A DNA stretch of 45,157 nucleotides from Saprospiraceae bacterium (GTDB lineage: Bacteria; Bacteroidota; Bacteroidia; Chitinophagales; Saprospiraceae). Position numbers and translations under genes: made by a program. Location of the stretch: NCBI GenBank assembly GCA_021739645.1, contig JAIPBL010000052.1, forward strand, positions 1-45,157, read 5' to 3'. Below are positions 3,332 to 45,157 of the stretch, in pieces; within the stretch, counting starts at the first letter, position 1; every line of letters starts with the position of its first letter. The notes under the pieces are model-generated. The model saw only the letters and a program-made list of their open reading frames with translations. It did not search any database and was not told the origin of the DNA.

Positions 3332-3448
3332 TTTGAATTGTTGCATTGTTAAATTGTTGAATTGTTTTTCTCGTATCACGAAAACCACAACAATATAGCA
3401 ATCAAGCAATTCGACAATCAAGCAATTCAACAATCAAGCAATCAACTA
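3332..3448. repeat. Intergenic inverted repeat built of ATTGTTG-like words
   Basis: The nqrA-nqrB gap consists of a left arm made of repeated ATTGTT(G/A)A words (about 3337-3367) and a right arm made of CAATCAAGCAATT/CAACAAT words (about 3390-3446), the rough reverse complement. The arms can pair in several registers. No T run follows, so this looks less like a full terminator than a structured spacer within the operon. Confidence 0.75.
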
Positions 3449-3451
3449 TAA

Positions 3452-4720
3452 ATGAGTACTTTCTTAGAAAAGATAAAGAAGCTGGAACCACCAAAGGAAA
3501 AGAGATTCCTGCATACACTGTACGACGGGTTTTTCACCTTCCTCTACGTGCCCGACCATACCACAAAAGGCCCTGGTGTTCACATCCTGGATCGCATGGA
3601 CCTGAAGCGCACGATGGTCATGGTGGTGCTGGCGCTCCAACTGTGCTATGTTTTTGGCACCTACAATATTGGTCACCAGCATTTTGTGGCGCTCGGCATG
3701 CACACATCATTCATGGCAGGCCTGCACCTGAAATTGGCCTACGGCTTGATTAAACTCTTGCCACTTTTCGTTGTGTCAATGGTCGTGGGCCTGGGTATCG
3801 AATTCTTTTACGCTGCCAAAAAAGGTCACGGTATCGAAGAGGGCTACCTGGTGACCGGGGCACTTATTCCGCTCATCATGCCACCGGATATTCCTCTTTG
3901 GATATTGTCATTGTCAATCGCTTTTGCGGTCATTTTGGGCAAAGAAGCCTTTGGTGGCACGGGTATGAACATCGTGAACATTGCCTTGCTTTCCAGGGTC
4001 TTCGTGTTCTTTGCCTACCCCACCACCATCTCCGGTGACCAGTGCTGGGTAGCTGGCCTGGAATATGCAGGCGGCAAAGGCGTCGGCGAAACTTATGGCT
4101 GGGCACAACATTTCTTTGACTGGATATTCAATGGCCTGGGCTGGGCCACTTTCGGCGAGGGGGGACGAGCCATTGCCGATGCCTTCACAGGCGCTACACC
4201 GCTTGGCCTAGCATCGCAAGGATGGGAACAAGTGACTGCGGTTTATTCGCCCATGCAAATGTTTTGGGGTGTCATTCCTGGCTCCATTGGCGAAACCAGT
4301 AAACCGCTCATCATTGTCGGTGCGCTGATGCTGATAGCCACCGGGATTGCCAGTTGGCGCATTATGCTGTCTTGCTTGGTTGGTGCCGTTTTCATGGCAA
4401 TGGCCTTCAACTGGTGGGGCTTCGATGCCTTTATGAACGTACCTTGGTACTACCATTTTTACATGGGCAGTTTTTGGTTTGCAGTCGCCTTCATGGCCAC
4501 GGACCCGGTCACAGCCTCCAGTACGAACACCGGCAAATGGATTTACGGTTTTTCCATTGGGGCGCTTGGTATCATCATCCGAATAATGAACCCGGCCTAT
4601 CCCGAGGGTTGGATGTTGGCGATATTGTTCATGAATGTTTTTGCACCACTGATTGACCATTTTGTGGTTGAATCCAATATTAAGCGCCGCCAAAAAATTT
4701 CGGCAGCAGCTGGAAATTGA
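3452..4720 (+). CDS. nqrB: Na+-NQR subunit B
   Basis: Integral membrane subunit of Na+-NQR that takes part in electron transfer and Na+ translocation. It has 422 residues, close to the usual length, with multiple hydrophobic helices from residue 52 onward. The covalent FMN attachment site is clear: F-T-G-A-T-P with the acceptor threonine at T249. Other family blocks: RMDLKRTM, GHQHFVALG, MPPDIPLW, GKEAFGGTGMN, MATDPVTASST. The flavin is attached by ApbE, which is not in this window. It follows nqrA after a 120-bp palindromic spacer and precedes nqrC by 51 bp. No anomaly in the coding sequence. Confidence 0.97.
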   Translation: MSTFLEKIKKLEPPKEKRFLHTLYDGFFTFLYVPDHTTKGPGVHILDRMDLKRTMVMVVLALQLCYVFGTYNIGHQHFVALGMHTSFMAGLHLKLAYGLIKLLPLFVVSMVVGLGIEFFYAAKKGHGIEEGYLVTGALIPLIMPPDIPLWILSLSIAFAVILGKEAFGGTGMNIVNIALLSRVFVFFAYPTTISGDQCWVAGLEYAGGKGVGETYGWAQHFFDWIFNGLGWATFGEGGRAIADAFTGATPLGLASQGWEQVTAVYSPMQMFWGVIPGSIGETSKPLIIVGALMLIATGIASWRIMLSCLVGAVFMAMAFNWWGFDAFMNVPWYYHFYMGSFWFAVAFMATDPVTASSTNTGKWIYGFSIGALGIIIRIMNPAYPEGWMLAILFMNVFAPLIDHFVVESNIKRRQKISAAAGN

Positions 4721-4724
4721 ACCG

Positions 4725-4769
4725 CAAAAAATTGAACACAATAAAGATTTTGTTTTTCAAAAAATTGAA
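4725..4769 (+). repeat. 12-bp direct repeat in the nqrB-nqrC gap
   Basis: CAAAAAATTGAA occurs at 4725-4736 and again at 4758-4769, the second copy ending just before the nqrC ATG at 4772. Its meaning is unknown; it may simply be a local duplication, but it is the same kind of short-word repetition seen in other gaps of this window. Confidence 0.8.
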
Positions 4770-4771
4770 AA

Positions 4772-5482
4772 ATGCACAGTAATAATTATGTAACTATTTA
4801 CACCGTCATCATGACCCTCATCGTATCGGTCGTGCTGGCCGTCATCGTATCGGGCCTGAAACCCATACATGATGACAATGAAGCTGTTTTCAAAAAAAGG
4901 GAAATCTTTCAGGCAGTAAAAGACTACCTAGGTGCTGATTTGGACAAAATGTCCGACAAAGAAGTGCTCGCGCTTTTTGACAAAAACATGCAACAAGTGG
5001 TGATTGATGCCAATGGCAAACCAGTGGAAGGTGTCAAGGCAGAGAATATTGACATGGCAAAAGAAGAGAAGAAACCTATTGCTGACCGCCAATACCCTGT
5101 CTTCACATTTGTGGGAGAAAAAGGGACTTATTACCTCGTTTCTATACGTGGGAACGGCCTTTGGGACAAAATATGGAGCACGATAGCCTTTCAGGATGAT
5201 TTCAATACTATTGCTGGTGTATCTTTTGGCCATGCCGCCGAAACGCCAGGTCTTGGGGCCGAGATTACCGACAACCCAAGTTTTCCAAAACAATTCCAAG
5301 GCAAAACCATTCAAGATGATGGCCAATACGTTTCTGTGGCCGTTGTAAAAGGTGGCATAAAGAAACCCTCCCACCAAGTGGATGCTATCACTGGCGCCAC
5401 CATTACTTCAAACGGTGTAACTGAAATGTTGGAAAGGGGACTCAAAGTATATCTGCCCTATTTTGAAAGCTTAAAAAAATAA
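4772..5482 (+). CDS. nqrC: Na+-NQR subunit C
   Basis: Subunit C of Na+-NQR: one N-terminal membrane helix (residues about 8-29, YTVIMTLIVSVVLAVIVSG) and a periplasmic FMN-binding domain. The flavinylation motif D204-A-I-T-G-A-T210 is intact, with T210 as the FMN acceptor; S200-H-Q-V precedes it as in the family. GLWDKIWS and HAAETPGLGAEI are further conserved blocks. 236 residues is within the family range. It belongs to the nqr operon between nqrB and nqrD (60-bp gap to nqrD). Flavin loading needs ApbE from elsewhere in the genome. Confidence 0.97.
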   Translation: MHSNNYVTIYTVIMTLIVSVVLAVIVSGLKPIHDDNEAVFKKREIFQAVKDYLGADLDKMSDKEVLALFDKNMQQVVIDANGKPVEGVKAENIDMAKEEKKPIADRQYPVFTFVGEKGTYYLVSIRGNGLWDKIWSTIAFQDDFNTIAGVSFGHAAETPGLGAEITDNPSFPKQFQGKTIQDDGQYVSVAVVKGGIKKPSHQVDAITGATITSNGVTEMLERGLKVYLPYFESLKK

Positions 5483-5542
5483 GTTCTTTTCGGCAGCGGG
5501 CAGCGCCTTTTTCCGAAGAAAATCAAAAAAAATAAACGCATC

Positions 5543-6241
5543 ATGGCTGAAATTGCAACGCAAGTAGAGCAGGAAAAAGAACCGCTCTTTGGCAAGAAAG
5601 AAAGAAAGCTGTTGATAGACCCTATCAACGATAACAACCCCATTACCGTGCAGGTATTGGGTATCTGTTCTGCACTGGCAGTAACCACGCTCGTTGACAA
5701 GGCATTCGTTATGGCCATTGCCGTGACCTTCGTGACAGCATTTTCCAACTTGGCAGTTTCCTTCCTCCGCAAGGGCATGCCCAAACAAATCAGGATGATT
5801 GTGCAGCTCGTCGTCGTTGCCTTCTTGGTGACCGTGGTAGAGTTGGTACTGAAAGCCGCAAATTACCCTATCTGGAAAGAACTTTCGGTTTACATCGGCC
5901 TCATCATCACCAACTGTATCGTGATGGGCCGTCTGGAAGCCTATGCCATGGCCAACAAACCTTGGCGTTCCTTCCTGGACGGCGTAGGTAACGGTCTTGG
6001 CTACGGTGTCATCCTAATCATGGTCGCTGCTGTTAGAGAGATTTTTGGAAAAGGGAGTCTTGCTGGTTTCAAAATCATCGGTAACACGCCTGAATACTTG
6101 ATTGATAGTACCCAGAATGCCTTCTTTTCGTGGTACATGCCCAACAACCTGATGGTAATACCAGCCTCTGCACTTTTTGTCATCGGCATCATCATTTGGG
6201 TGCAGCGTTCAAAGAATACCAAACTCGTGGATGTATCTTAA
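5543..6241 (+). CDS. nqrD: Na+-NQR subunit D
   Basis: Integral membrane subunit, relative of RnfE. It has 232 residues, about 20 more than the Vibrio protein because of a charged N-terminal extension (residues 1-28, EQEKEPLFGKKERK). Family blocks NNPITVQVLGICSALAVTT and TNCIVMGRLEAYAM contain C42 and C125, which correspond to the cysteines that, together with those of NqrE, hold the membrane-embedded iron-sulfur centre. DGVGNGLGYG is also conserved. Six helices are expected. It is followed by nqrE after 39 bp. Confidence 0.96.
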   Translation: MAEIATQVEQEKEPLFGKKERKLLIDPINDNNPITVQVLGICSALAVTTLVDKAFVMAIAVTFVTAFSNLAVSFLRKGMPKQIRMIVQLVVVAFLVTVVELVLKAANYPIWKELSVYIGLIITNCIVMGRLEAYAMANKPWRSFLDGVGNGLGYGVILIMVAAVREIFGKGSLAGFKIIGNTPEYLIDSTQNAFFSWYMPNNLMVIPASALFVIGIIIWVQRSKNTKLVDVS

Positions 6242-6244
6242 TCT

Positions 6245-6275
6245 GAAACTCTAAGTTCACAATTCGAAACTCTAA
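6245..6275 (+). repeat. 10-bp direct repeat in the nqrD-nqrE gap
   Basis: GAAACTCTAA is present at 6245-6254 and 6266-6275, filling most of the 39-bp spacer before nqrE. Function unknown. Confidence 0.8.
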
Positions 6276-6280
6276 TAAAA

Positions 6281-6895
6281 ATGGGTGATTTACTCAATAT
6301 CTTCATAAAGTCCGTTTTCATTGAAAACATGGTACTGGCGTACTTCCTCGGAATGTGCTCCTTCCTCGCTGTTTCCAAATCGGTGAAAACAGCCATTGGA
6401 CTTGGTGCTGCCGTAGTGTTTGTGCTTACGCTCACCGTACCCATCAACTGGTTCATCAACGAAAAAATCCTTGGCCCGAACGGCCTTTTCGGCATGGACC
6501 TTACCTTCCTGCGCTTCATCCTGTTCATCGCCACCATTGCGGCATTCGTTCAGTTGGTGGAAATGGTCGTGGAGAAATTCTCTCCGTCACTTTACAACGC
6601 CTTGGGTATTTTCCTTCCGCTCATCACCGTGAACTGTGCCATCCTTGGTGGCGCACTGTTTATGGTAGCAAGGGAATACAGCATCGGGCAGGCCACTACT
6701 TTTGGGTTTGGTTCAGGGGTCGGCTTCATGGTAGCCATCGTGGTGATGGCCGCCATTCGGGAAAAAATCAGGTACAGTGCCGTGCCACCAGCCCTGCGAG
6801 GCTTGGGCATCGCCTTTATCATCACAGGACTCATGGGCATCGCCTTTATGAGCCTGATGGGTATCAATCCTGGCAATTACATGCAGCATCATTAA
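6281..6895 (+). CDS. nqrE: Na+-NQR subunit E
   Basis: Integral membrane subunit, relative of RnfA, 204 residues, with six predicted helices. The two iron-sulfur cysteines are present: C26 in [12 protein letters not shown] and C119 in [22 protein letters not shown] and [12 protein letters not shown] are family blocks. NqrD and NqrE form a pseudosymmetric pair in the membrane. The gene continues the operon; a 77-bp spacer with two interleaved inverted repeats separates it from nqrF. Confidence 0.97.
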
Positions 6896-6965
6896 CTGAA
6901 AATGGAGAATCGATAGTTGAAAATTATCAATGCCCTATTCTCCATCTTCAGTTGTCAATTTTCAA
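6896..6965. repeat. Two interleaved inverted repeats in the nqrE-nqrF gap
   Basis: Repeat 1: CTGAAAATGGAGAAT (6896-6910) pairs with ATTCTCCATCTTCAG (6937-6951), one mismatch in 15. Repeat 2: TTGAAAATT (6917-6925) pairs perfectly with AATTTTCAA (6957-6965). The second repeat opens inside the loop of the first and closes outside it, the arrangement of a possible pseudoknot. No T run follows. nqrF starts at 6973, so the structure could influence nqrF translation. Confidence 0.7.
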
Positions 6966-6972
6966 TTGAACT

Positions 6973-8262: not shown

Positions 8263-8266
8263 AACG

Positions 8267-8297
8267 AAAAAGCCCGGCTGCGAAGTCGGGCTTTTTT
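8267..8297 (+). terminator. Intrinsic terminator of the nqr operon
   Basis: AAAAAGCCCG (8267-8276) pairs perfectly with CGGGCTTTTT (8287-8296) around a 10-nt loop, and the right arm is itself the T run. It sits 5 bp after the nqrF stop codon. Confidence 0.9.
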
Positions 8298-8350
8298 GTT
8301 GTGAAAACAAAGCGGCAATCTCTTTTAACCAGAAAAAGTCAAAGTATAAA

Positions 8351-8776
8351 ATGGACATCGGCAAATTCAATTTCACCCTGCCCATCCAGGTAAGATGGAG
8401 CGATTTGGACCCGTTGGGGCATGTCAACAATGCTGTTTTTGTCACTTATTTTGAAATCGTGCGGGGGCATTTCATGATAAATGCCTGCCCCGGGTGGGAC
8501 TGGAAAAAGGACATGTTCCTAATTGCCAACGTAACCGCCAATTTACACAAAGAACTATTGTTGACGGCCGTGGAACCAGCGGTAAACATCCGAACTTCCA
8601 AAATTGGGAACAAAAGCTTTGTGCTGGAATATGCGGTCACCTCAAAAAATGGTGATAAAACAATCGTGCATGCCACCGGGACTACTACCCAAATCATGTT
8701 TGATATGAAAACCCGAACCACCATCGAGATTCCTGACTGGGTTCGGCGGTCGCTTGGGGCGTTTGATGGGTTATGA
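8351..8776 (+). CDS. Hotdog-fold acyl-CoA thioesterase (4HBT/YbgC type)
   Basis: A 141-residue hotdog protein of the 4-hydroxybenzoyl-CoA thioesterase/YbgC family, expected to hydrolyse acyl-CoA or acyl-ACP thioesters in the cytoplasm. The active-site helix motif is clear: R15-W-S-D18-L-D-P-L-G-H24-V-N-N27-A, followed by TYFEIVR. The reading frame is open for another 129 codons upstream, but those overlap nqrF and its terminator; the ATG at 8351 follows the terminator and starts the fold correctly (FNFTLPIQVRW). The specific substrate cannot be read from sequence. The stop codon overlaps the left arm of a long inverted repeat. Confidence 0.9.
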   Translation: MDIGKFNFTLPIQVRWSDLDPLGHVNNAVFVTYFEIVRGHFMINACPGWDWKKDMFLIANVTANLHKELLLTAVEPAVNIRTSKIGNKSFVLEYAVTSKNGDKTIVHATGTTTQIMFDMKTRTTIEIPDWVRRSLGAFDGL

Positions 8777-8869
8777 TTGATAGGACGCAGATTGAACAGA
8801 TTAAACAGATTCACACAGATAAAATCAGCGCAAATCAGTTTAATCAGTTCAATCTGTGTTCTATCAATC
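8775..8869. repeat. Long inverted repeat with CAGATTnAACAGATT-type words
   Basis: A 37-nt left arm (8775-8811) and a 37-nt right arm (8833-8869) are reverse complements with four mismatches around a 21-nt loop. Each arm is itself a string of (A)CAGATT(A/G)AA words. It could act as a transcription barrier after the thioesterase gene although no T run follows. The remaining 8870-9004 holds only a weak -7-like TACCTTCG at 8952-8959. Confidence 0.85.
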
Positions 8870-10852: not shown

Positions 10853-10853
10853 A

Positions 10854-10909
10854 ATTGGGTTATTGGGTTATTGTTCGAGAGCAATACCCCAATAACTCAA
10901 TAACCCAAT
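10854..10909. terminator. Palindrome between convergent genes, likely bidirectional terminator
   Basis: ATTGGGTTATTGGGTTATTG (10854-10873) pairs with the right arm at 10890-10909 with one mismatch over 20 bp, loop 16 nt. The arms are built from the word ATTGGGTT. It fills the gap between the GH144-like gene stop and the SusD stop on the other strand. No long T run, so termination is inferred from position and stem strength. Confidence 0.6.
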
Positions 10910-10915
10910 ACCGTT

Positions 10916-12433: not shown

Positions 12434-12520
12434 GGTTGCTTCGCAACGTACCATTCAAAATTGCGAAGCGACCAAAATGTTACTTAAGTTAGGAGGTAAC
12501 TTTAAGTTACCTCCTAACTT
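12434..12520. repeat. Two hairpins in the susC-susD spacer (pair 1)
   Basis: Hairpin A: arms at 12434-12446 and 12461-12473 (GGTTGCTTCGCAA with one mismatch). Hairpin B: AAGTTAGGAGGTAAC (12486-12500) pairs perfectly over 15 bp with 12506-12520 around a 5-nt loop. On the minus strand (the transcribed direction) hairpin B comes first after the susC stop and is not followed by a T run. Such a spacer structure could stabilise the susC message or lower susD expression relative to susC. Confidence 0.8.
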
Positions 12521-21054: not shown

Positions 21055-21055
21055 A

Positions 21056-21140
21056 AGGAGGTTTAGCGGGTTTAGGAAGTTTAGAAGGTTTAGTTTGAAG
21101 CCTTTTAAACCTCCTAAACCCCTCTAAACATACTAAACCT
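21056..21140. repeat. Inverted repeat of GGTTTAG words in the susC-susD spacer (pair 2)
   Basis: The 97-bp spacer holds a left arm (about 21056-21093) of four spaced (G)GTTTAG words and a right arm (about 21102-21140) of four TAAACC words. Pairing is imperfect but extended. It is analogous in position to the hairpins of pair 1 though unrelated in sequence. Confidence 0.75.
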
Positions 21141-22615: not shown

Positions 22616-22625
22616 TTTTTGATTC

Positions 22626-22691
22626 AACACGGAGGCACGGAGACACAGAGGCGCACTTAGTGAAATCTCGTTGTATTTGTGCCTCCGTGTT
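22626..22691. repeat. Inverted repeat in the susD-GH30 spacer
   Basis: AACACGGAGGCAC (22626-22638) and GTGCCTCCGTGTT (22679-22691) are perfect reverse complements over 13 bp. The intervening 40 nt begins with further CGGAG/CACAGAGG words. It lies 14 bp before the GH30 start codon and has no T run. Confidence 0.85.
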
Positions 22692-22704
22692 TAATAACTA
22701 AGCC

Positions 22705-26938: not shown

Positions 26939-27117
26939 CCATGTTAGGAACGTGGGTGAAATAAGTTGCCATTTTCGGCGACTGTATTCTTGGTGGTGAC
27001 AAGGCGACGGAACAGGCGCATAGCCTAGCTACGCAACTGTTTCGTCAACGAAGTCAGCGTCAAAAAGACGCCGCCCAAAACGGTAAGTTATTTCGCACAC
27101 GTTCCTTAACAGCATGG
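26939..27117. repeat. 179-bp fold-back element between convergent genes
   Basis: The ends CCATG...TTAGGAACGTG (from 26939) and CACGTTCCTTAAC...CATGG (to 27117) are imperfect reverse complements over about 40 bp, including GAAATAAGTT/AACTTATTTC-like blocks. The pairing continues inward with GACGGAACAG against CTGTTTCGTC around a small central TAGCCTAGCTA. The whole unit can fold into one long interrupted hairpin. It is probably a dispersed intergenic repeat and may double as a terminator for both neighbours. There is no ORF. Confidence 0.75.
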
Positions 27118-27157: not shown

Positions 27158-30100
27158 TTATCTAACCACCACCACATCCCCCTTCAGCAACTTCCGCTCG
27201 CCGTTCACCAATTCCACTTCTGCAAACCAAGCGTAAACGCCAAGGTCCACTTTTTTGCCACGGGAAGTACCGTCCCAGCCTGTGTTCACATCATTTGGCC
27301 GCAGGCCAAACCCCTCAAAAATAGACTCGCCCCATCGGGTAAACACCTGAAAACTGACCACCTGCTTCACCTGCTTTTCATCCGCAAACACCGTCAGCAA
27401 ATCGTTGATGCCGTCGTCGTTGGGGGAGAAGGCGTTGGGGACATAGATATTGCCCTCGGGGGCATTCACCGTGATGGAAATCGAGGCACTCGCCGTGCAA
27501 CCGTCCAAGCTCGTTACAGTGACCGTGTAAGTGATGTCGGAATCGGGAAAGGCTGTGGGTTTTAGGCAATCGGTGCAGTTCAACCCATCGGCGGGTGACC
27601 ATTCCACCGAAGCCACTTCGGACACGGGAATGTTCAGCACTGGGCTGAGTTGAAGCGAACCGCCTGCCTGCACAGAAGCATTTGCTGGCAGGTTCACAGA
27701 CAGTTGTGAAAAAGTTGGCAAGGACACGTCAACGGTCGTTTCACAGCCGATTACATCATAAATTGAAATGGTGTAATTCCCCGGCAACAGCCCCTCGAAA
27801 AGGCCGCTTGTCGTGAAGTCCACCCCATCGAGAGAATAATAATACAGGGAAGTTGCACTGAACGAAATGCTACCCAGTGGGTCGGCACAAGTCGGCATCA
27901 CGATATTCGGTTCAGGAAAAACAGCTAGTCCCTCCGTCACCACAACCGAATCGAGGGCCGTGCAGCCGTTCGCTGGGTTAGTCACAACCAAAAAATAGGT
28001 TCCTGCTTCACCCACCGTTGGGCTTGCCGAGGCATTACCCGAAACAATGTCGCCATTGATGGTGGTCCACAAGTAGGCCGAATTGGGCACGTTACTGTTG
28101 CCCTGCAAAATCAATGAGCTTTGCCCACAAGGCAGTGTTGCCGATTGGCCCGCATCAACTACTGGTGGCGTAATATCCTGACCAATAGCTACTTGTGTCG
28201 TGGCCGTACAGCCATTTCCTTGATTGGTCACGGTCAAAGTATAAACCCCGGGCTGGTTCACAACTGGCTGCAAAGTAGTCCCACCTACCACAATTCCCGG
28301 CCCGGCCCATAAATAGGCAATGCCCGCACCACTGCTGCTGCCCATGCCGCTCAATGGTACAGTGGTCTGTTGGCAAGTCAACATTTGCGGCGCAGCCGCA
28401 ACCGCTATCGGAGGGGTGGCCGTCGAGTTCAACGCAACCGAAGCTGTCGCCGTGCATCCATTCGCTTGGTTAGTCACCGTCAGCGTGTAAACACCGGCCG
28501 CATTCACCACAGGAGAGAGGGTCGTGCCACCACTCACGATGCCGGGACCTGTCCACAGGTAGTCAAAACCCGCACCACTGCTGCTGCCCGTGCCGTTCAG
28601 GGTTACTTGCTGCGCAATGCAGTCGAGGCTTTGCGGCGCAGCCGCAACGGCAGTCGGCGGCGAAATAGTCTGGTTCAGCGTGGCCGAAGCCGTCGCCGTG
28701 CAGCCGTTCGATTGGCTCGTCACCGTCAGCGTGTAAACGCCAGGGGCATTTACGATTGGAGAAAGCGTGGTACCGCCATTCAAGATGCCGGGGCCTGCCC
28801 ATAAGTAGTCAAAGCCCGCACCCGTGCTGCTTCCCGTGCCGCTCAGCGGTACTTGCTGAACTAGGCAGTCGAGGCTTTGCGGCGCAGCCGCAACAGCAAC
28901 TGGCGGCGTGATATTTTGGGTCAAAACAGTGGTGGCCGAAGCCGTGCAGCCCGTCGCCGAGTTAGTCACGGTGAGGGTGTAGCTCCCTGCCAGGTTTGCG
29001 GTTGGCGAGAGCGTCATGTCCCCAGCGATGATGCCGAGGCCTGTCCATTGGTAACTGAAATTTGCGCCCATGCTACTCCCCGTTCCACTCAGTTGCACTT
29101 GCTGCGCAAGGCAGGTGAGTTGTTGCGGCGCAGCCGCAACAGCCGTTGGCGGCGTTAAGTCTTCGGTGACGGTTACCTGCGCAAAAGTGACACAGTTGGT
29201 GGTGGTATTCGTCACTTGAAAGGTGTAAACGCCAATGGCATTCACCACGGGCATCAGCGTCGTCTCGCCACTCAAAATGCCCGGGCCCGTCCAGAGATAG
29301 GCGAAGTTGGGGCCGCTGCTGCTCCCCGTCCCGTTCAGGGTGGAGGTAAGCACCGTGCAGCCGATGGGTTGCGGCGGCGCCACAATGCCATCCGGCTGCT
29401 GCGATTGGTCAGTGACCTGCACACTGGCCAAAGTTTGGCAGTTGTTTGCCGTGTTCGTCACCGTGAGCAGGTAGGTGCCGGCGGCTGTCACGGTGGGCAT
29501 GAGCGTTGTTTCGCCCATCGAAATCTGGCCGTTGGTGGTTGTCCAGAGATAGCTGATGTTGGGGCCAGTGCTGCTTCCTGTGCCGTTCAGCGTAGCCGAC
29601 AGCACGGAGCAGGTCAGCGATTGCGGAGCACCCGCCACGGCCACGGGAGCGCTGGCATCCTGCCCGACTAGCACGTCGTCCGTTGCGGAGCAGCCACTTG
29701 CCACATCGGTAACGGTGAGGGTGTAGAGGCCGGGGGCATTCACGGTGGGCGTTGGCGTATCGGCGCCGTTCTGGATGTTTCCGTTTTGCGTCGTCCAAAA
29801 GTAGCTGACATTTGGGCTGCTGCCCGAACCATCGAGCTGGAGGCTGGACTGGCCGCAAAGCAGGGTTTGCGGAGCACCTGCATCGGCGATGGGAATATCT
29901 CCAGATTGATAAACATTCACTTGGTAATACCAAACACAGCCTGTATTTTCATTGAAAATGTTAAGCGCATAAATCCCAGGTTCATTGACGGTCGGAGTCA
30001 AAGTCCCACCACCACTAACGATGCCGTTTTGGCCACTGAAATTTTCCCAACCATAAGTATAGTTTGAACCAAGATTCGCCGACAAAACTATTTGAACCTC

Positions 30101-32974
30101 ATTAGCTAAACAAGAAAGTGTGTCAGGTGGAATATGCGTAATGGTCGGAATGGTATCAATCCCTTCTACCAATACATCATCCACAGCTGTACAGCCATTG
30201 CTGTTGTCAGTAACTGTCAAATAGTATGTACCCGGAACCTGAACCATCAATTGTAGGCTTGTATCACCATTTGACCATAAATAAGAGAATTGAGGGCCTT
30301 GATTGCTACCGCTTCCATCCAAAGGCTGCGAACCATTGCTATTGCAATCTTCCGCATCAGGGTCAGGCCCTGCGTCCGCCACAGGGGATATGATATCCTG
30401 CAATATTGTCACGGAAGCATTGGACTCACAGTTGTTGGTGGTGCTGACGAGGATGAGCTGGTAAACACCGGGTTGGTTGACGGTCGGCGTCAATGTGTTT
30501 TGCCCACCAACAAAACCAGGGCCGTTCCAAGTGATGGTGATATTTGGGCCATTGGAAGAACCCGTTGCGTTCAGCGTGATTTCGTCCGTGTCGCAGTCGA
30601 GTTGACCGGGCAATTCAATCAGCACGATTGGCGCATTGGCATCCTGCCCAACGGCCACCGTATCAATGGCCGTGCAGCCGTTCGCCGCATTTTCCACTGT
30701 CAAAACATAATTGCCAACGCCGTCCACATCTGGGGTGAGCGTCGTGTCACCACTGACGATGTTGCCGTTCGGGGTCGTCCACAGGTAGCTAAAGCCGGAG
30801 CCAGTGCTGGAGCCGCTGCCATCGAGCGGGATGGCCGTGCCACTGCAATCCAGCGTGGCATTTGGGCCTGCTTGCGCAATGGGCGGGGTGCTGTTTTCGG
30901 TCACGGTCGCCGAGGCGGAGGCAGTGCAGCCACTGGTGGTGTCGGTGAGGGTGAGGGTATAAACCCCGGCACTACCCACCCACGGCATCAGCGTGGTGTC
31001 GCCGGAGAGGAACGTGCCGTTTTGCGAAGCCCAAACCAACCCGAAGCCGGGGCTACCAGTCGATTGCGAAGCATCCAACTGCACCGAGTCGGTGAGGCAG
31101 TTGAGTACAGGAATCGGGGTGGCAATGCCGACAGTTGGCTGTGAAAAATTGGCGCTGACGCCGACGCTGGCCGTTGCCGTGCACCCGTTTGAGGTGTTGG
31201 TGACGGTCAAAATGTAAACACCCGCCGAGTCCACGGTGGCCGTTGGGCCATTGGTGGGGCTGGTGAAATGGCCGTCGGGGGTGCTCCAAGCGTAGCTAAT
31301 GCCGGGGCCGTTGCTGCTGCCCGTGCTGCTGAGGGTGTCAATGGCATGGCCGCAGTTCAAATTGCCAGTGGAACTGGTGGCCGAGGCAGTGGGTGGGGAG
31401 GCAGTGGTAGCCAAGGTGGTTGTTGCGGTGGCAGTGCAACCGTTGTCGTCATTGGTGACGGTGAGGGTGTAGCTGCCGGGGATGTTCACGAGGCAGTCGT
31501 TTTGGGTGTTTTCACCGGAAACGATGCCGGGCCCTGTCCACAGGTAACTGAAATTGCCGCCCGAACTGCTGCCCATGCCGCTGAGGGTCGTTTCAAAAAC
31601 AGCGCAGGAAAGCGGTGTGGGCGCATTGGCCATGGCCATTGGCAGCATGGTGTTTTGGTTCACGGTCGCCGTGGCGGTGGCGGTGCAGCCGCTGATGGAG
31701 TTGGTGACAGTGAGGGTGTAGAGTCCTGGTTGGTTCACCTCCGGCATCAAAGTTCCTTGCCCGGAGATTACCGCAAAGGCGGGTTCCCACTCGTAGCTGA
31801 TGGTATTTTCGGAAGAGCTGCCCGTCCCATCTAAAAAGACGGTGGAATTGGTGCAAGTCAGCATTTCGTTGGCAGCGGCGAAGGCCGTCACAATGTTTGG
31901 GTCGTCCTGCACTGTGAGGCTGGAGGAGACTTGGCAGTGCGTGGGGCCGAAATCGAAATTGACGGTAAGCGTGTAATTGCCCACTTGATTGACGGTGACG
32001 ATGGGCGTGTTGGCGCCCGCAATGATGCCGGGGCCCGTCCAGGAATAGGTAATATTTGGCCCGGCAGATGAGGCGCTTCCGTCGAGTTGGATGCCAGATT
32101 GTACCGCATTGCAAGGCAAAAAAGCGGTGATGGGCACAATGGCTTCGATGTTCGCCACGTCCACATTCACTTCATCGGTGACGGTACAGGCGGCGGCGAA
32201 GAAGATGTCGTCAAGGGCGTAGTCATCGCCGAAGAAGCCGTTGCCGCCCGTGATTTGGTCGAGGATGCAAAGGTTAGCCGTACTGGATGAACCAGAGTAC
32301 CATGAGGCAGAAAACTGTTGCCAATTGCAGGTGCCCGTGCCGACGGGGTATGGGTCGCCAACGGACGTTCCGTTCACCGAAAACTGCAAGGTGGGTGGTG
32401 TGATGGGTGAGGCCATCGCCCAGCCGCTCATCACGTACCAGGTGTTGGGCGTAACGGGGATGGTCTGGCACCAAACCTGCGCCCCAGTGCTGGCGTCGCC
32501 GTTGATGAGCATCATATTTCCCGTGCCGTTGCCGTAGGTGTGGTCGTCGCATGGTGGAAACGAGGAGAGCACGAGTGCTGGGGAGGTGGTGAGCACATAC
32601 GTGCCGGGCGTGATGGGCTGGGCTGCGTAGGTATAAACGCTCGTGAAACCGCTGTTGCCGGACTCGAAGCCGGGGTTGGTGACGAGGTTGGTCGCTGTGG
32701 GGTCAACGGCCTGTGCGGTCAGCGTGTAGGTTATCGGCCCTGTGATAATGGCAGTCGGATTGAGGAAGTTGGGGTTGTTGAGGCCCGAGGGTGGCGACCA
32801 TGCGAACCCGAGGTAGGGCCCCGAGACATTTCCCTGCAAGAGTGTGGAATTGCCCACATCGCAGACAATCAGGTCGGGGCCGGCGCTGACGGTGATGGGG
32901 CACTGGGCAGTGAGCGGGTTTTTCGAAAAAAACAGGCTGAGAAATAACAGAATGAAAAGGTTGCGGGTACTCAT
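27158..32974 (-). CDS. Giant modular surface adhesin with gliding-type C-terminal domain
   Basis: A 1938-residue secreted protein (with the start used here). Order: signal peptide (ending PLTAQ), an Ig-like module, a jelly-roll, CBM-like domain (about 100-265, NLVTNPGFESG to DYALDDIFF), about 17 Ig/PKD-like modules of about 82 residues, an SprB-type repeat-like region, and a CHU_C type B T9SS sorting domain (VPNAFSPNDDGINDLLTV, FTRWGESIFEG, GKKVDLGVYAWF). Each module has a conserved L-x-C near the start, SYLW, YTLTVT and NGCTA, so the two cysteines probably form a disulfide per module. The frame opens at 33004, but a -7-like box at 33004-33011 puts the transcript start near 32998; Met at 32974 (MSTRNLFIL) is preferred. 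Probable adhesion or gliding role; ligand unknown. Confidence 0.9.
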   Translation of the reverse strand: MSTRNLFILLFLSLFFSKNPLTAQCPITVSAGPDLIVCDVGNSTLLQGNVSGPYLGFAWSPPSGLNNPNFLNPTAIITGPITYTLTAQAVDPTATNLVTNPGFESGNSGFTSVYTYAAQPITPGTYVLTTSPALVLSSFPPCDDHTYGNGTGNMMLINGDASTGAQVWCQTIPVTPNTWYVMSGWAMASPITPPTLQFSVNGTSVGDPYPVGTGTCNWQQFSASWYSGSSSTANLCILDQITGGNGFFGDDYALDDIFFAAACTVTDEVNVDVANIEAIVPITAFLPCNAVQSGIQLDGSASSAGPNITYSWTGPGIIAGANTPIVTVNQVGNYTLTVNFDFGPTHCQVSSSLTVQDDPNIVTAFAAANEMLTCTNSTVFLDGTGSSSENTISYEWEPAFAVISGQGTLMPEVNQPGLYTLTVTNSISGCTATATATVNQNTMLPMAMANAPTPLSCAVFETTLSGMGSSSGGNFSYLWTGPGIVSGENTQNDCLVNIPGSYTLTVTNDDNGCTATATTTLATTASPPTASATSSTGNLNCGHAIDTLSSTGSSNGPGISYAWSTPDGHFTSPTNGPTATVDSAGVYILTVTNTSNGCTATASVGVSANFSQPTVGIATPIPVLNCLTDSVQLDASQSTGSPGFGLVWASQNGTFLSGDTTLMPWVGSAGVYTLTLTDTTSGCTASASATVTENSTPPIAQAGPNATLDCSGTAIPLDGSGSSTGSGFSYLWTTPNGNIVSGDTTLTPDVDGVGNYVLTVENAANGCTAIDTVAVGQDANAPIVLIELPGQLDCDTDEITLNATGSSNGPNITITWNGPGFVGGQNTLTPTVNQPGVYQLILVSTTNNCESNASVTILQDIISPVADAGPDPDAEDCNSNGSQPLDGSGSNQGPQFSYLWSNGDTSLQLMVQVPGTYYLTVTDNSNGCTAVDDVLVEGIDTIPTITHIPPDTLSCLANEVQIVLSANLGSNYTYGWENFSGQNGIVSGGGTLTPTVNEPGIYALNIFNENTGCVWYYQVNVYQSGDIPIADAGAPQTLLCGQSSLQLDGSGSSPNVSYFWTTQNGNIQNGADTPTPTVNAPGLYTLTVTDVASGCSATDDVLVGQDASAPVAVAGAPQSLTCSVLSATLNGTGSSTGPNISYLWTTTNGQISMGETTLMPTVTAAGTYLLTVTNTANNCQTLASVQVTDQSQQPDGIVAPPQPIGCTVLTSTLNGTGSSSGPNFAYLWTGPGILSGETTLMPVVNAIGVYTFQVTNTTTNCVTFAQVTVTEDLTPPTAVAAAPQQLTCLAQQVQLSGTGSSMGANFSYQWTGLGIIAGDMTLSPTANLAGSYTLTVTNSATGCTASATTVLTQNITPPVAVAAAPQSLDCLVQQVPLSGTGSSTGAGFDYLWAGPGILNGGTTLSPIVNAPGVYTLTVTSQSNGCTATASATLNQTISPPTAVAAAPQSLDCIAQQVTLNGTGSSSGAGFDYLWTGPGIVSGGTTLSPVVNAAGVYTLTVTNQANGCTATASVALNSTATPPIAVAAAPQMLTCQQTTVPLSGMGSSSGAGIAYLWAGPGIVVGGTTLQPVVNQPGVYTLTVTNQGNGCTATTQVAIGQDITPPVVDAGQSATLPCGQSSLILQGNSNVPNSAYLWTTINGDIVSGNASASPTVGEAGTYFLVVTNPANGCTALDSVVVTEGLAVFPEPNIVMPTCADPLGSISFSATSLYYYSLDGVDFTTSGLFEGLLPGNYTISIYDVIGCETTVDVSLPTFSQLSVNLPANASVQAGGSLQLSPVLNIPVSEVASVEWSPADGLNCTDCLKPTAFPDSDITYTVTVTSLDGCTASASISITVNAPEGNIYVPNAFSPNDDGINDLLTVFADEKQVKQVVSFQVFTRWGESIFEGFGLRPNDVNTGWDGTSRGKKVDLGVYAWFAEVELVNGERKLLKGDVVVVR
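28150..29160 (-). repeat. Four near-identical 246-bp units in the adhesin gene
   Basis: The 15-bp word TGCGGCGCAGCCGCA (plus strand) recurs at 28386, 28632, 28878 and 29124, exactly 246 bp apart, which equals 82 codons. Flanking sequence is also highly similar. These four modules are much closer to each other than to the rest of the array, so they reflect recent duplication or gene conversion. Confidence 0.9.
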
Positions 32975-33003
32975 AAGGCTGACGACTGCGTTCTTGTTCA
33001 GCA

Positions 33004-33011
33004 CGAAGGTA
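33004..33011 (-). promoter_or_regulatory. -7-like box of the adhesin gene
   Basis: Minus-strand TACCTTCG, one mismatch from TAnnTTTG. The same octamer lies upstream of the GH144-like gene (8952-8959). No TTG at the expected -33 distance. It supports the use of the downstream Met at 32974. Confidence 0.4.
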
Positions 33012-34933: not shown

Positions 34934-34986
34934 TAGAAGTAGAACTTTGCTTAGGTCAAAACCATGTTGAATTGCGAATTTTATAT

Positions 34987-35293
34987 CTTACATTCACGAG
35001 TTGGCGAAATCTATTTTTTGATTTAATAAATTGCCTAATTTCAGGCGTTAACAACGCATTTTCATGTCGAATTCATGGATTTCAAGATTTTGAATTTTTC
35101 ATTTCAAGTTTGAAACGAAACCAATGTAAAACTTGAGAACGATTTAAGTACTTGATTATCAGGGCGAGTAAATTTTTAAAATCGAATTCGCTTTGTTCAA
35201 ACCCCTGATTATCAATTACTTATTTTCATTAAACCGAAATTACGAAGAAAAATTTAAATCGCAAAATAGCCAGACGCAACTCGTGAATGTCAG
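34987..35293. mobile_element. MITE-like 307-bp element with terminal inverted repeats and 6-bp duplication
   Basis: The ends are 17-bp terminal inverted repeats with one mismatch: CTTACATTCACGAGTTG (34987-35003) and CAACTCGTGAATGTCAG (35277-35293). The hexamer TTATAT flanks the element directly on both sides (34981-34986 and 35294-35299), as a target-site duplication would. Homology between the arms continues inward for roughly 25 more bases (CTATTTTTTGATTTAA-like), and a second inner inverted repeat pairs AAGTACTTGATTATCAGGG with CCCTGATTATCAATTACTT. No ORF inside. This occupies most of the 419-bp gap between the OsmC gene and the phosphoesterase gene. Confidence 0.7.
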
Positions 35294-35352
35294 TTATATG
35301 ATTTCAATAAATTGATTTTCAACGGATTGTGAGCTGTTAGTCAGAATAAAAA

Positions 35353-36576: not shown

Positions 36577-36629
36577 GCAGTATAGCTATTGGCTATTGGC
36601 CGTTGGCCAATAGCCAATAGCTATACTGC
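36577..36629. repeat. Perfect 25-bp inverted repeat with 3-nt loop
   Basis: The arms 36577-36601 and 36605-36629 are perfect reverse complements over 25 bp, separated only by GTT. They contain the repeated words CTATTGG/CCAATAG. Found 45 bp after the phosphoesterase stop codon. Position suits a transcription stop, but there is no T run. Stems of this perfection are also preferred recombination or replication-slippage substrates. Confidence 0.9.
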
Positions 36630-36632
36630 GCA

Positions 36633-36738
36633 CTAATAGGTTTTGTGCATTTTGAATTTTGAACAAAACTACAAAATGCTAGTGTTTGTTGAGGTTTTGC
36701 AAATTTTTCAGGATATTGATTTGCACAAAACCTATTAG
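36633..36738. repeat. 17-bp inverted repeat around a 72-bp core
   Basis: CTAATAGGTTTTGTGCA (36633-36649) and TGCACAAAACCTATTAG (36722-36738) are perfect reverse complements. The core is AT-rich. A related sequence, AGGTTTTGTCCATTTGAAATT, with one base difference and one gap, lies just before the preceding hairpin near 36557. It looks like a dispersed repeat unit rather than a gene. Confidence 0.8.
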
Positions 36739-36766
36739 CGCAGAGTATAACGGCCAGAAGTATAAC

Positions 36767-41022: not shown

Positions 41023-41179
41023 GTTACGTAAGTTTTGGTTGTAAGAAATAAAAGCTAAGTCCGTTGTCGGACAATGGTTAAAATCGTAAGTGAATTGTCA
41101 GTAAAAACCGTGTAGAATGAAACCAGAAGAAGTTTGTAGAAATCGAGTTGTGGAGAAGGAGATGGTAAGAATTGTGGTG

Positions 41180-41210
41180 CAAAGATACGGCGGGATGTGA
41201 CAGAAGGCAA
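41180..41210 (-). promoter_or_regulatory. Bacteroidota-type promoter of the PD40 gene
   Basis: Minus-strand TTG (41208-41210), a 20-nt spacer and TATCTTTG (41180-41187) match the -33/-7 consensus. Transcription from near 41174 gives a 150-nt leader for the gene starting at 41022. The rest of the 41023-41372 gap holds two copies of CCATCCAAATTCT (near 41259 and 41310) and nothing else I recognise. Confidence 0.75.
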
Positions 41211-41372
41211 GGGGTTGGCATTTTGCGCTAGCAAATCGAAGCAGATGGGTATTTTATCCATCCAAATTCTACCACAAATATTAAGTGATTGAAAATGAGT
41301 TGGTTAGCCATCCAAATTCTAGGTTTGAGGGTCAAATTGCGGAGCAAAAAAAAAATTGATTTCCTGAAAAAA

Positions 41373-42932: not shown

Positions 42933-43160
42933 ATTGTGGTCAAATTGAAGTGTTTGCGGCCTGATACAATTCCCTATCTTAATTAAATGGAGTGTGCTAG
43001 TCTATGAGCCTATCATGCAGATTATCCGTTTGGAATCAAATACTAAGCCATAGGGGAAATTGATAATTTGACAAAAACCGTTAAAAAATATCCCATTCAA
43101 AATTGAACCCATCCCGATTCTCCGTGTACAATGCCCTGTATTTTTTAAACTTTGACCATC

Positions 43161-45086
43161 ATGAAAAAGACATTGTCCATTGCAACATCCCTGCTTTTCT
43201 TGGCAACCAGCCTATTGGCAAACCACCGTTCGGCAGCACTGCCCGAATCCATCAAGCCTATTTCCAAAGTGGCCTACTCTTTTGAGTATTACACCGAGCA
43301 GGCCAAACTCTGGAAACTGGAAACAAGCAAAAACGCCCGGAACCCCGATGCCTGGCTCAACTACTTCCGTGCGGCCCGCTATGCCAACATGGTCAACCGG
43401 GACGGCCAGCCAGCCTTCGACCTAACGGCCATTGTGGAGAAGATTCCAGCCGCACTGCACAATACTTTCGAGTACCAATTCATTAGTTTTATGAATGCTG
43501 ATTGGGACGAGCGCCGCTTTCAGTTCCTACTGAAAGCCCATGAAATTGCGCCGCAGCGCACCGAAATCTACCACGACCTGGTCACCTACCACGAGACGAG
43601 GGGCGAGCAGTCACAGGCACTTTTTTACCTCAAAAAATTGTTTGAAGCTGGCGAGTTCCCAGCCGAGCTGTTGGCTTGGAATTACAACCTCCTTGCCTCC
43701 GTGGAGCCGGACGCCATCCTGCTCACCTACGGCGACAACGACACCTACCCGCTGTGGGTGCTGCAATCGGCAAGGGGCATCCGAAAGGACGTTAAGGTAT
43801 TGAATATCAACTTGTTATTACTGGAAGAATACCGAACCAAAGCCCTTTTGCAATTGGGGTTGCCCGCCATTGACCTCAGTAATTGCCAAGACACGAAGGC
43901 GATGTACCTGCTAGTGATGAACGCAATCATGTCCGGCGCAAAGCAGCCTGTATATGTGGCCAACACCATGCCCGAACCCGTTCGCCAAGCATTTGGCGAC
44001 AGCCTGTACCTCACGGGGCTTGCCTTCCGCTACGCCGCAAACGCTTTTGACAACCTGGCTTTTTTGAAAAACAATTATGAAAACAAGTTCCTGCTCGATT
44101 ACCTGCGGGTGGACTTCAGTCCCGACTCCGTTTCCTCGGTGCTGTCCGGCATGAACCTCCAGTACCTCCCTGCCTTCCTCTTGCTCCACCAACATTACGA
44201 GGCCAGTGGCGAGAAATTCAAGGCGGCGAACCTGGAACCTGTCATGCGGCGGGTAGCCAAAGAAGGTGGACGTGAAAGCGAATTGGCCGCTTACTTGTCC
44301 ACTTATACGAAGGATTCCTACGCTGTGGAGTCTGCCATCTCCATTCGCAGCCTGGACAAGGGATTGAAGAAAATCAACGGCAACCTCTTTGCCTTCGACA
44401 CCGAGGTGACCAACGGCCAATACGAGGCTTTTTTGATGGATTTGGTAAAAAACAAGGCGTTCGACCTGCTCGCCACCTGCCAGGCTCCACGTACCGATTG
44501 GCGCAGCCTACTACCCAGCACCCTGAAAAATTTGCCAGACAGTGAAGTTTTCAAAAACGCCAACCCGGATGACCCACAAGCCCCCATCGTGAACATCAGC
44601 CATGAGGCTGCCCAGCAATACTGCACCTGGATTACGAAAGTTTACAACGCCAGCACCGACCGGAAAAAAGCCCACAAGAAAGTGCGCTTTCGGCTGCCAA
44701 CCGAGGCCGAGTGGGAAATAGCTGCACATGCTGGCAGAGATGCCCCCTACCCTTGGGGCGGCTACTATATCCGAAACAATAAAGGCTGCTACCTCGCCAA
44801 CTACGACGTGTCTGCCGAGGCGACCTGCAAAGACTGCCCCAGCACCAACAACGACAGGCCAGACGATGGCGGCTACTTCACCGTGAAGGCCGATTCCTAC
44901 TTCCCCAATGACTTCGGCCTGTACAACACGAGCGGAAACGTTGCTGAAATGATAGACCAACCCGGTGCAACCAAAGGCGGGAGCTGGTTTGAAATTCCGT
45001 ATTACGGTCAGATCACCAGTCGCAATACTTTCACCAAACCAGCGCCGTTTATTGGGTTTCGGGTTTTTATGGAGGTAATTGAGTAA
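43161..45086 (+). CDS. Secreted DUF2723-like/FGE-sulfatase-domain protein
   Basis: A 641-residue protein from ATG 43161 (MKKTLSIATS; an in-frame ATG 9 bp upstream is less likely). Signal peptide about 1-20. Residues about 40-180 are helical and TPR-like. Residues about 180-300 carry YGDNDTYPLWVLQSARGIR and VKVLNINLLLLEEYR, which closely resemble the soluble C-terminal part of DUF2723 membrane proteins. The last 235 residues are an FGE-sulfatase/SUMF1 domain: FDTEVTNGQYEAFL, FRLPTEAEWEIAA, GLYNTSGNVAEM, GGSWFEI, GFRVFMEV. The catalytic cysteines of true formylglycine-generating enzymes are not seen near the C-terminus, so it is probably non-catalytic, as in the gliding proteins GldJ/GldK. Function unknown. 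Confidence 0.8.
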   Translation: MKKTLSIATSLLFLATSLLANHRSAALPESIKPISKVAYSFEYYTEQAKLWKLETSKNARNPDAWLNYFRAARYANMVNRDGQPAFDLTAIVEKIPAALHNTFEYQFISFMNADWDERRFQFLLKAHEIAPQRTEIYHDLVTYHETRGEQSQALFYLKKLFEAGEFPAELLAWNYNLLASVEPDAILLTYGDNDTYPLWVLQSARGIRKDVKVLNINLLLLEEYRTKALLQLGLPAIDLSNCQDTKAMYLLVMNAIMSGAKQPVYVANTMPEPVRQAFGDSLYLTGLAFRYAANAFDNLAFLKNNYENKFLLDYLRVDFSPDSVSSVLSGMNLQYLPAFLLLHQHYEASGEKFKAANLEPVMRRVAKEGGRESELAAYLSTYTKDSYAVESAISIRSLDKGLKKINGNLFAFDTEVTNGQYEAFLMDLVKNKAFDLLATCQAPRTDWRSLLPSTLKNLPDSEVFKNANPDDPQAPIVNISHEAAQQYCTWITKVYNASTDRKKAHKKVRFRLPTEAEWEIAAHAGRDAPYPWGGYYIRNNKGCYLANYDVSAEATCKDCPSTNNDRPDDGGYFTVKADSYFPNDFGLYNTSGNVAEMIDQPGATKGGSWFEIPYYGQITSRNTFTKPAPFIGFRVFMEVIE

Positions 45087-45099
45087 GTTGATTTGTGGT

Positions 45100-45157
45100 C
45101 GCCCAATTTATTGGGCTGGCCGTTTATAGAAATTCGGTCAGCCCAATAAATTGGGCG
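45100..45157. repeat. 23-bp inverted repeat at the window end
   Basis: CGCCCAATTTATTGGGCTGG... (45100-45122) pairs with 45135-45157 with one mismatch over 23 bp, loop 12 nt. Within each arm GCCCAAT and ATTGGGC form a second small palindrome. It starts 14 bp after the stop codon and probably ends transcription. The window stops exactly at its last base, so downstream T content cannot be judged. Confidence 0.85.

Follow-up and report, generated by a model that had tools for sequence, protein, structure and literature searches.

The palindromes built of short repeated words in the intergenic gaps of a 45,157-nucleotide Saprospiraceae contig (JAIPBL010000052.1, analysed at its full length and hereafter the window) are probably gene-less copies of small hairpin elements that resemble the intervening sequences (IVS) of 23S rRNA and usually carry a gene of the PF05635 or GxxExxY type. 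A full element consists of a G-rich word array, followed by a loop with one small gene and by the complementary C-rich word array. The loop gene usually encodes a four-helix-bundle protein of the 23S rRNA IVS type (PF05635/TIGR02436) or, with words of the CACGGAG/CAGATT type, a GxxExxY protein.

Palindromes and word arrays in the window

The first-pass annotation of this DNA reported inverted repeats in at least nine gaps; all eight that it listed were verified, and the nqrE-nqrF gap at 6.9 kb provides the ninth. The best hairpin was matched by none of 300 dinucleotide shuffles in the gaps at 3.3, 8.8, 10.86, 12.5, 21.1, 22.6, 36.6 and 45.1 kb and was equalled by one of 300 in the nqrE-nqrF gap. 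As RNA, all nine palindromes fold strongly (z from -5.2 to -13.3), none of 200 shuffles being as stable. In a genome sample of 380 kb (the window and 20 further stretches, with 44 kb of gaps), the gaps contain 52 hairpins and 42 tandem arrays, whereas five shuffles gave no hairpin and 0–4 arrays. These shuffle tests rule out a chance origin of the palindromes. Two direct repeats reported between nqr genes are likewise present (all window features are given without strand), namely two copies of CAAAAAATTGAA in the nqrB-nqrC gap (4725..4769; no hairpin; an equally long repeat in 14 of 1000 shuffles) and two copies of GAAACTCTAA in the nqrD-nqrE gap (6245..6275; 1 of 1000). In three relatives, the latter gap holds word hairpins with the words GGTATGA, AGGGATG and GTTATGA.

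Most window word hairpins have related arms among the gene-bearing elements described below. The hairpin of ATTGTTGA words that occupies most of the gap before nqrB (3333..3446) has words in common with the arms of the PF05635 elements L323, L324 and L301, and the nqrE-nqrF hairpin, composed of TGAAAATGGAGAAT and TTCAATT words (6894..6970; absent from the earlier list), with the PF05635 elements L259 and L315. The most 7-mers are shared by the hairpin of GGTTTAG(AA) words between two sus genes (21060..21140), with PF05635 elements L240 and L226. For the hairpin of CAGATTnAA words with 46-bp arms (8775..8869) and that of CACGGAGG words (22622..22695), the nearest arms among the examined elements are those of GxxExxY elements, L286 of the same genome first in the former case and L270 in the latter. 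Convergent genes flank two hairpins, a perfect one with 25-bp arms of GCTATTG words (36577..36629), which has some words in common with the broken PF05635 element L307 (6 of 23 7-mers), and one of ATTGGGTT words (10854..10909), for which no clear PF05635 cognate was found among the examined elements; in the relative G013, a gap of equal length (63 bp) contains a GGGTGAGA-type hairpin. A second inverted repeat (36622..36749; arms 36622-36649 and 36722-36749) overlaps part of the 36.6-kb hairpin. Finally, the contig begins with an array of about 20 perfect copies of GCAGTTG (1..139), a word that is also found in the arms of three PF05635 elements, L246 of this genome, L257 and L229.

The remaining two palindromes, at 12.5 and 45.1 kb, are dispersed palindromes of another kind than the word hairpins. 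The former (12486..12520) consists of AAGTTAGGAGGTAACTT and its inverse, with 22 genome matches at no more than 2 mismatches, and is missing from the corresponding gap of G013, whereas the REPIN-like latter (45100..45157, at the contig end) is made of two inverted copies of GCCCAATAAATTGGGC, with 77 genome matches at no more than 1 mismatch. REP and REPIN sequences are dispersed, intergenic, near-identical hairpins associated with RAYT transposases and present in many gene-less copies. The word hairpins are likewise dispersed, intergenic and numerous without a gene, but they are variable word arrays rather than one near-identical palindrome and have other protein families in the loop; dispersed near-identical inverted pairs were found only at 45.1 and 12.5 kb. 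Mobilisation in trans by transposases of the Y1/RAYT kind, which read hairpins in single-stranded DNA, is compatible with these two pairs and with the seven Y1_Tnp matches in the genome, and an asymmetry between 5' and 3' arms could be the product of an enzyme that reads single-strand hairpins. As an explanation of the word hairpins it is nevertheless unlikely, given that the surroundings of six Y1_Tnp loci yielded only non-word palindromes, that the seventh (L370) has a single word hairpin about 1 kb off but a non-word inverted repeat immediately around the gene, and that the words covary with PF05635 proteins instead. No exact copies of the 12.5- and 45.1-kb palindromes were found at the seven loci (2.1–3.3 kb each).

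The first-pass annotation held that the palindromes share no sequence and form no single transposable family. The second statement is borne out, one dispersed family being ruled out by the many different words. The first holds insofar as the word tends to differ from gap to gap; however, the sequences recur elsewhere in the genome. Leaving aside the 12.5- and 45.1-kb palindromes, most of the 7–9-bp words recur in the genome or genus, and ATTGGGTT, TTGTTGAA, GGTTTAGAA, CACGGAGG and CAGTTGG turn up again in other gaps of the 380-kb sample.

Anatomy and polarity of the word hairpins

Among 85 word hairpins, the word period is 7 in 44, 8 in 35, 9 in 3 and 10 in 3, and the tandem 7-bp gap words typical of heptameric repeats of the STRR type are found in part. 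Fixed ends of the MITE kind were not seen by eye. In 83 of the 85, the G-rich arm lies on the 5' side, and this holds for hairpins in co-directional (57 of 59), in convergent (11 of 11) and in divergent gaps (8 of 8), which rules out gene context as the cause of the polarity. Single arrays outside detected hairpins are mostly C-rich near starts (25 versus 4 in co-directional and 13 versus 3 in divergent gaps) and G-rich near stops (23 versus 10 in co-directional and 15 versus 4 in convergent gaps). An effect on translation was dropped as the source of the polarity because convergent gaps contain no starts. That the G-rich arm is almost always the 5' one is a clue to mechanism, and every model must account for it.

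The expression or mRNA stability role that had been proposed for these palindromes is not supported. As functional RNA hairpins, they would be intercistronic stems that tune mRNA stability or expression within operons, in keeping with the strong folding of the window hairpins, the position of 59 of the 85 word hairpins between co-directional genes and the location of arrays often only a few bases from stop or start codons. However, the polarity is the same between convergent and divergent genes, where hairpins also occur, and there is no match to Rfam in the window at the gathering threshold. Mismatches between arms are of the G.U type in 43 cases and of the A.C type in 47; this lack of a wobble excess argues against selection for RNA pairing. 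Moreover, among 170 orthologous comparisons, the hairpin is present in one genome only in 61, and where both sides have one, the words differ in 34 of 48 (a set that takes in a few non-word palindromes). A functional RNA is thus a very improbable explanation.

Odd words occupy mirrored positions in the two arms of some hairpins (e.g., L131:4406-4479 and L143:6266-6346), suggesting that the arms are copied from one another, as expected of template switching. These examples, the variable repeat numbers and the lack of an RNA-level pairing signature fit a purely local origin, in which polymerase slippage makes the tandem words and template switching the hairpins, with no element or protein involved; slippage at heptamers has already been proposed in the available text of PMC4692102. 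The first-pass annotation favoured such local manufacture. It appears right in that the arms seem to be copied from each other, but the words are drawn from a shared stock and slippage does not predict a G-rich 5' arm. Already strained by the G-rich 5' arm in 83 of 85, a purely local origin predicts neither the dispersed shared words nor the association and covariation with particular proteins described next, and is an unlikely account of the whole.

Loop genes and their words

In the genus, 66 of 75 PF05635 genes (23S rRNA IVS/four-helix type) lie between complementary word arms, compared with 6 of 295 control genes, an excess that a purely local origin does not predict. The 75 were drawn from about 123 matches, fragments included, and tested in two sets (37 of 39, then 29 of 36), the 295 controls accompanying the 39-gene set; the 36-gene set counts L334, which pairs via a non-word palindrome, and L311, with C-rich pairing unlike words. 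The same arrangement was found for 9 of 10 GxxExxY genes, a count into which L292 and L294 were not entered. Contig-end loci without flanks were excluded (PF05635: L228, L299, L300, L321 and L322; GxxExxY: L267 and L290). By the names read from their sequences, four of the five control positives from an earlier round of this test look mobile-type themselves; the fifth is nqrD, with a hairpin on each side. PF05635 elements have the G-rich arm on the left in a ratio of 66:3 in the genus, 15:1 across the phylum (2 equal) and 13:0 on plasmids, and GxxExxY elements have a less marked polarity (within the genus, 6 of 9; elsewhere, 6 of 6).

Within the genus, similar PF05635 proteins share words (Mantel r 0.36, 0 of 5000 permutations). 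At non-homologous sites, words are shared by all 8 pairs of at least 80% protein identity, by 15 of 24 pairs at 60–80% and by 52 of 2013 below 35%. Across groups, where no pair reaches 60% identity, the correlation is absent (r 0.026, 473 of 5000; three unpaired plasmid loci left out). When gene-less hairpins were matched to element arms, 26 of 73 shared at least half of their 7-mers, compared with 47 of 1460 shuffled; this agreement is only moderate, and 12 of the 85 hairpins, identical to element arms, were left out. L334, L311 and elements scoring below 12 were removed before the covariation, arm-matching and cross-group tests. Given that shared words go with particular PF05635 or GxxExxY genes, the words cannot simply be local products.

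At the same gap sites, relatives can have different hairpins. For two gene-bearing elements of this genome, G003 has a shorter, gene-less hairpin of other words at each site; with regard to target-site duplication, the G003 side is thus another hairpin and not an empty target. One of these two elements also occurs in G013, and further shared sites exist, so that some arms agree by descent.

The gene-bearing forms of the genome and genus combine a PF05635 gene with an inverted-repeat stem, as does the IVS, described as a hairpin stem around one small S23p/four-helix gene and as unclear in origin and function in the available text of PMC4990558. In contrast to the 23S rRNA IVS, which is located inside the rRNA gene and excised by RNase III, the elements lie in protein-gene gaps, as do the gene-less window hairpins; gene-less copies are abundant, and the arms are repeated 7–9-bp words, each copy having different ones. 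The elements work like an IVS but are not classed as one.

Diversity-generating retroelements comprise a reverse transcriptase with template and variable repeats. The available text of PMC10053308 describes PF05635 as homologous to their Avd protein, with a related four-helix fold, which raises the possibility of an Avd-like protein whose partner reverse transcriptase copies the hairpin RNA. Consistent with this, this genome has a reverse transcriptase next to a weak PF05635 match and a match to Y1_Tnp, and one of ten element proteins has a weak DivGenRetAVD match (39 of 80 bits, far below the cut-off). The element itself, however, has no reverse transcriptase, and a search with the element profile retrieves no Avd structure at E 0.01. 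RVT_1 is absent from 6 of 13 genus genomes, which rules out reverse transcription as a general requirement, and three of these (G003, G008 and G012) hold word hairpins. Retro-mobility is therefore quite unlikely.

Distribution and possible mode of spread

Outside the genus, 13 of 16 tested plasmid PF05635 loci, mostly cyanobacterial (from 32 records), lie between complementary word arms, compared with 3 of 320 shuffles. Within the order but in other families, only 1 of 7 PF05635 loci passed the pairing threshold, and across the phylum only 14 of 30 did. In ten other Bacteroidota genomes with 6–16 PF05635 matches each, 200 kb sampled contained 6 tandem arrays and no gene-less word hairpin, whereas 180 kb from nine genomes without a PF05635 gene contained 4 arrays and 1 word hairpin. 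PF05635 gene number is thus unsupported as a predictor of gene-less hairpins, and the protein alone is insufficient to fill a genome with them. These results, like the absent correlation across groups, weigh against the element interpretation.

We propose that the protein would bind its own word on single-stranded DNA or RNA, perhaps with one word per subunit of a five-fold ring. Five-fold rings are known for this four-helix fold. The bound protein would enable the hairpin to enter other hairpins or take their place, probably when DNA is copied with a switch of template. The number of words might then be altered, and the arms repaired, by slippage and fold-back copying. A tentative and more far-reaching possibility is a selfish element with neither transposase nor reverse transcriptase, in which each four-helix protein reads its own 7–9-letter word in single-stranded G-rich arrays, and hairpins with that word would displace those built of different words at fixed positions in the gaps.

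Intergenic 7-bp words are also typical of the heptameric tandem repeats of cyanobacteria, Xanthomonas (GGGAATC) and Beggiatoaceae (TAACTGA). In the available text of the respective papers, one or a few words are given per genome and PF05635 and GxxExxY are not named, whereas here many words per genome are tied to these genes; a connection of either family to word repeats was not found in the open-licence literature. In Xanthomonas, 70 and 75 inverted pairs are called convergent (PMC4692102, available text), and BOGUAY repeats are described as lying mostly right before start codons (PMC4679880, available text).

Two puzzles are involved, namely the 7-bp intergenic repeats of many bacteria, which differ among close relatives, and the purpose of the protein encoded by rRNA intervening sequences. 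The element link would give the long-unexplained 7-letter repeats an owner and, if it holds, both puzzles could be tested by one binding experiment, and many "hypothetical four helix bundle proteins" would be word-specific, selfish DNA- or RNA-binding proteins. If the selfish-element proposal is true, the heptamer repeats in the gaps of cyanobacteria, Bacteroidota and others would all belong to a single system in which protein-word pairs compete, and the rRNA IVS would be its rRNA-dwelling branch.

Palindromes and words in the gaps

The source genome is a 6.16-Mb draft in 147 contigs, of which the window is one entire contig, and by comparison of NqrF its nearest named relatives are mostly Saprospiraceae metagenome bins. 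Genes of the window are named from family matches for ten proteins; the putative nqr genes are so called after the first-pass annotation. All the palindromes listed in that annotation were found, each exceeding shuffled sequence, along with an additional one in the nqrE-nqrF gap. In 380 kb of this genome (the window and 20 stretches), gaps of at least 20 bp, totaling 44 kb, contain 52 hairpins and 42 tandem arrays, compared with 0 hairpins and 0–4 arrays in five dinucleotide shuffles. In this census, 58 hairpins lie within gaps or no more than 30 bp from them, and 9 in predicted genes.

The window palindromes are of more than one sort, those at 45.1 and 12.5 kb being set apart from the word hairpins, i.e., palindromes with arms built of repeated short words. 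The window thus holds two dispersed palindromes together with hairpins of many words, in agreement with the earlier claim that there is no single shared family, and many of these words turn up again in further gaps of the genome. Searches with hairpins of two word families gave dozens of matches in three relatives, and so did searches with the arms of two gene-bearing elements. The 45.1-kb palindrome (45100-45157, the contig end) is a REPIN-like pair with 77 matches in the genome, including copies that lie, in some 20 contigs, no more than about 70 bp from the contig start. A GCAGTTG array occupies the start of the window (1-139); such repeats therefore seem to interrupt assembly. The 12.5-kb palindrome has 22 matches in the genome and is absent from the corresponding gap of a relative (G013). 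Two more long inverted repeats of the window, at 26946-27106 (83% complementary, 91 nt apart) and 34977-35303 (85%, 273 nt), lack word structure, and an imperfect tandem repeat of ~246 bp (28438-29162) lies within a 1948-aa gene (27158-33004).

Small genes between word arms

In one orthologous gap, two relatives carry a small gene between the word arms, which reads as encoding a four-helix protein of the 23S-rRNA-IVS type (PF05635). There are 15 PF05635 matches in the source genome, 2–16 per genome in twelve genomes of the same genus, and none in 14 control genomes. When the 300-bp flanks of a gene were paired against each other (positive at a score of at least 14), 37 of 39 tested PF05635 genes of the genus, and then 29 of 36 further ones, had pairing flanks, the two exceptions among the first 39 scoring 12 and 13.5; for control genes (250–700 bp, same genus) the count was 6 of 295. 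By sequence reading, the five control genes that scored positive in the first test are two Y1-transposase-like genes, one GIY-YIG-nuclease-like gene, one GxxExxY gene and nqrD, which lies between two hairpins. Of 69 PF05635 elements, 51 have a single hairpin whose arms enclose the gene, and 18 carry an additional hairpin in a flank. For GxxExxY genes (PF13366), the flanks pair in 9 of the 10 genus cases and in 6 of 16 outside the genus. A further small gene, GIY-YIG-like by reading (L186:8771-9124), is flanked by ~100-bp inverted repeats without word structure.

Flanks of PF05635 genes pair in 1 of 7 cases in other families of the same order, in 14 of the 30 top matches across the phylum (3 of 150 shuffles), and in 13 of 16 loci picked from 32 plasmid records (3 of 320 shuffles); of the latter 13, cyanobacteria account for 10 (out of 13 cyanobacterial loci), and Azospirillum, Gemmatirosa and Bernardetia for one each. 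Four plasmid PF05635 genes (L374, L376, L383, L373) are placed as if inserted in operons: the neighbors are cas6 and cas4 in two cyanobacterial cases, cas10/cmr2 and a gene of the Cmr3 family in another, and genes for ribonucleotide reductase subunits in the fourth. Elsewhere in the source genome (G000:C51:41217-42972; L334, L368), a reverse transcriptase, a PF05635 match below the curated cut-off flanked on either side by CGCCGAACCCCAGTTCGGCG palindromes, and a Y1_Tnp match adjoin; together they may represent a retroelement that encodes an Avd-like protein.

Shared 7-mers relate the window hairpins to arms of gene-bearing elements: the 21.1 kb hairpin to L240 and L226, that at 3.3 kb to L323, L324 and L301, that at 6.9 kb to L259 and L315, that at 36.6 kb, weakly, to the broken L307, and the GCAGTTG array to L246 of the source genome and others. 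The 8.8 and 22.6 kb hairpins share 7-mers with GxxExxY elements (L286, from the source genome, and L270, respectively); for the 10.86 kb hairpin, no good partner was found among the examined arms.

Turnover of words and their link to the proteins

Words change rapidly in orthologous gaps. The nqrD-nqrE gap holds, in three relatives, hairpins built of GGTATGA, AGGGATG and GTTATGA words, and in the gap between the glycoamylase-like gene and susD, 63 bp in each genome, ATTGGGTT of the source genome faces a GGGTGAGA-type hairpin in G013. Among 170 comparisons of orthologous gaps, in which a few non-word palindromes are included and the hairpins as a whole are 37 G-left (with the 5' arm richer in G) and 4 C-left, both sides had a hairpin in 48, one side only in 61 and neither in 61; of the 48, 14 shared words and 34 differed. 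At two element sites (L251 and L256), flanks 84–87% and 76–85% identical to those of another relative (G003) enclose 552 and 514 bp (arms and gene) in the source genome and 73 and 97 bp in G003, which read as hairpins of other words; the L256 element is present in G013 too. This looks like one hairpin swapped for another, in whichever order, rather than insertion into empty DNA.

Across the 69 genus elements, with pairs that have homologous distal flanks excluded, protein identity correlates with shared arm 6-mers (r = 0.36; the highest value in 5000 permutations was 0.09, so that none came up to it). Words are shared by 8 of 8 pairs at protein identity of at least 80%, 15 of 24 at 60–80%, 11 of 69 at 45–60% and 52 of 2013 below 35%, and the most similar protein has the same word in 40 of 69 elements. 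Descent of the entire unit could explain this agreement as well as recognition; however, in one gap (g9-g10 of L143) words differ among four genomes although the neighboring proteins are 92–99% identical, so that agreement at 60–80% identity calls for a constraint of some kind. No correlation was found across groups (r = 0.026; 473 of 5000 permutations).

Polarity, possible spread and lineage

Among 85 word hairpins from 1.41 Mb of the genus, with a period of mostly 7 (44) or 8 (35), the 5' arm is richer in G than in C in 83: 57 of 59 in co-directional, 11 of 11 in convergent and 8 of 8 in divergent gaps, 5 of 5 inside predicted genes and 2 of 2 at edges. Left arms consist of 35% G, 35% T, 25% A and 6% C; non-word hairpins of the same set are G-left in 102 cases versus 68, with 20 equal. 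Because a hairpin is identical when read from either strand, this polarity is a property of the structure itself. It extends to PF05635 elements of the genus (66 versus 3), the phylum (15 versus 1, 2 equal) and plasmids (13 versus 0), and to GxxExxY elements outside the genus (6 of 6), with only 6 of 9 inside it. In clear examples, one arm mirrors the other, including odd words at matching positions, and mismatches between arms are wobble-type in 43 cases and A.C-type in 47, which gives no indication of selection for RNA pairing. Tandem arrays of genus loci for which no partner arm was detected often have one end no more than ~15 bp away from a stop or start codon; on the coding strand, they are C-rich ahead of starts and G-rich after stops.

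The anatomy of word elements, their association with genes, covariation within the genus, turnover and polarity are directly observed; beyond these, the protein would bind its own word, perhaps one word per subunit, and would drive the spread of its hairpin, and the G-left polarity would result if a nascent 3' end rich in G folded back and was copied onward. RVT_1 is missing in 6 of 13 genus genomes, which rules out reverse transcription as a general requirement. Two solved structures are matched by a profile of 24 element proteins, namely 2rld and XCC0516 (2gsc), whereas at E 0.01 no structure of Avd is. PMC4990558 describes XCC0516 as five four-helix bundles arranged in a ring, and also rRNA IVS elements with this protein. 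Heptamer repeats are known from Xanthomonas, Nostoc and Calothrix (PMC4692102) and from Beggiatoaceae, cyanobacteria and Bacteroidetes (PMC4679880); in searches of the open-licence literature, we found no paper linking them with IVS-type protein elements. No word hairpin was present in a total of 200 kb from ten Bacteroidota genomes with 6–16 PF05635 matches, and 1 was present in 180 kb from nine genomes that lack the gene. Thus, it is this lineage, and not the PF05635 protein as such, that is characterized by abundant gene-less copies.
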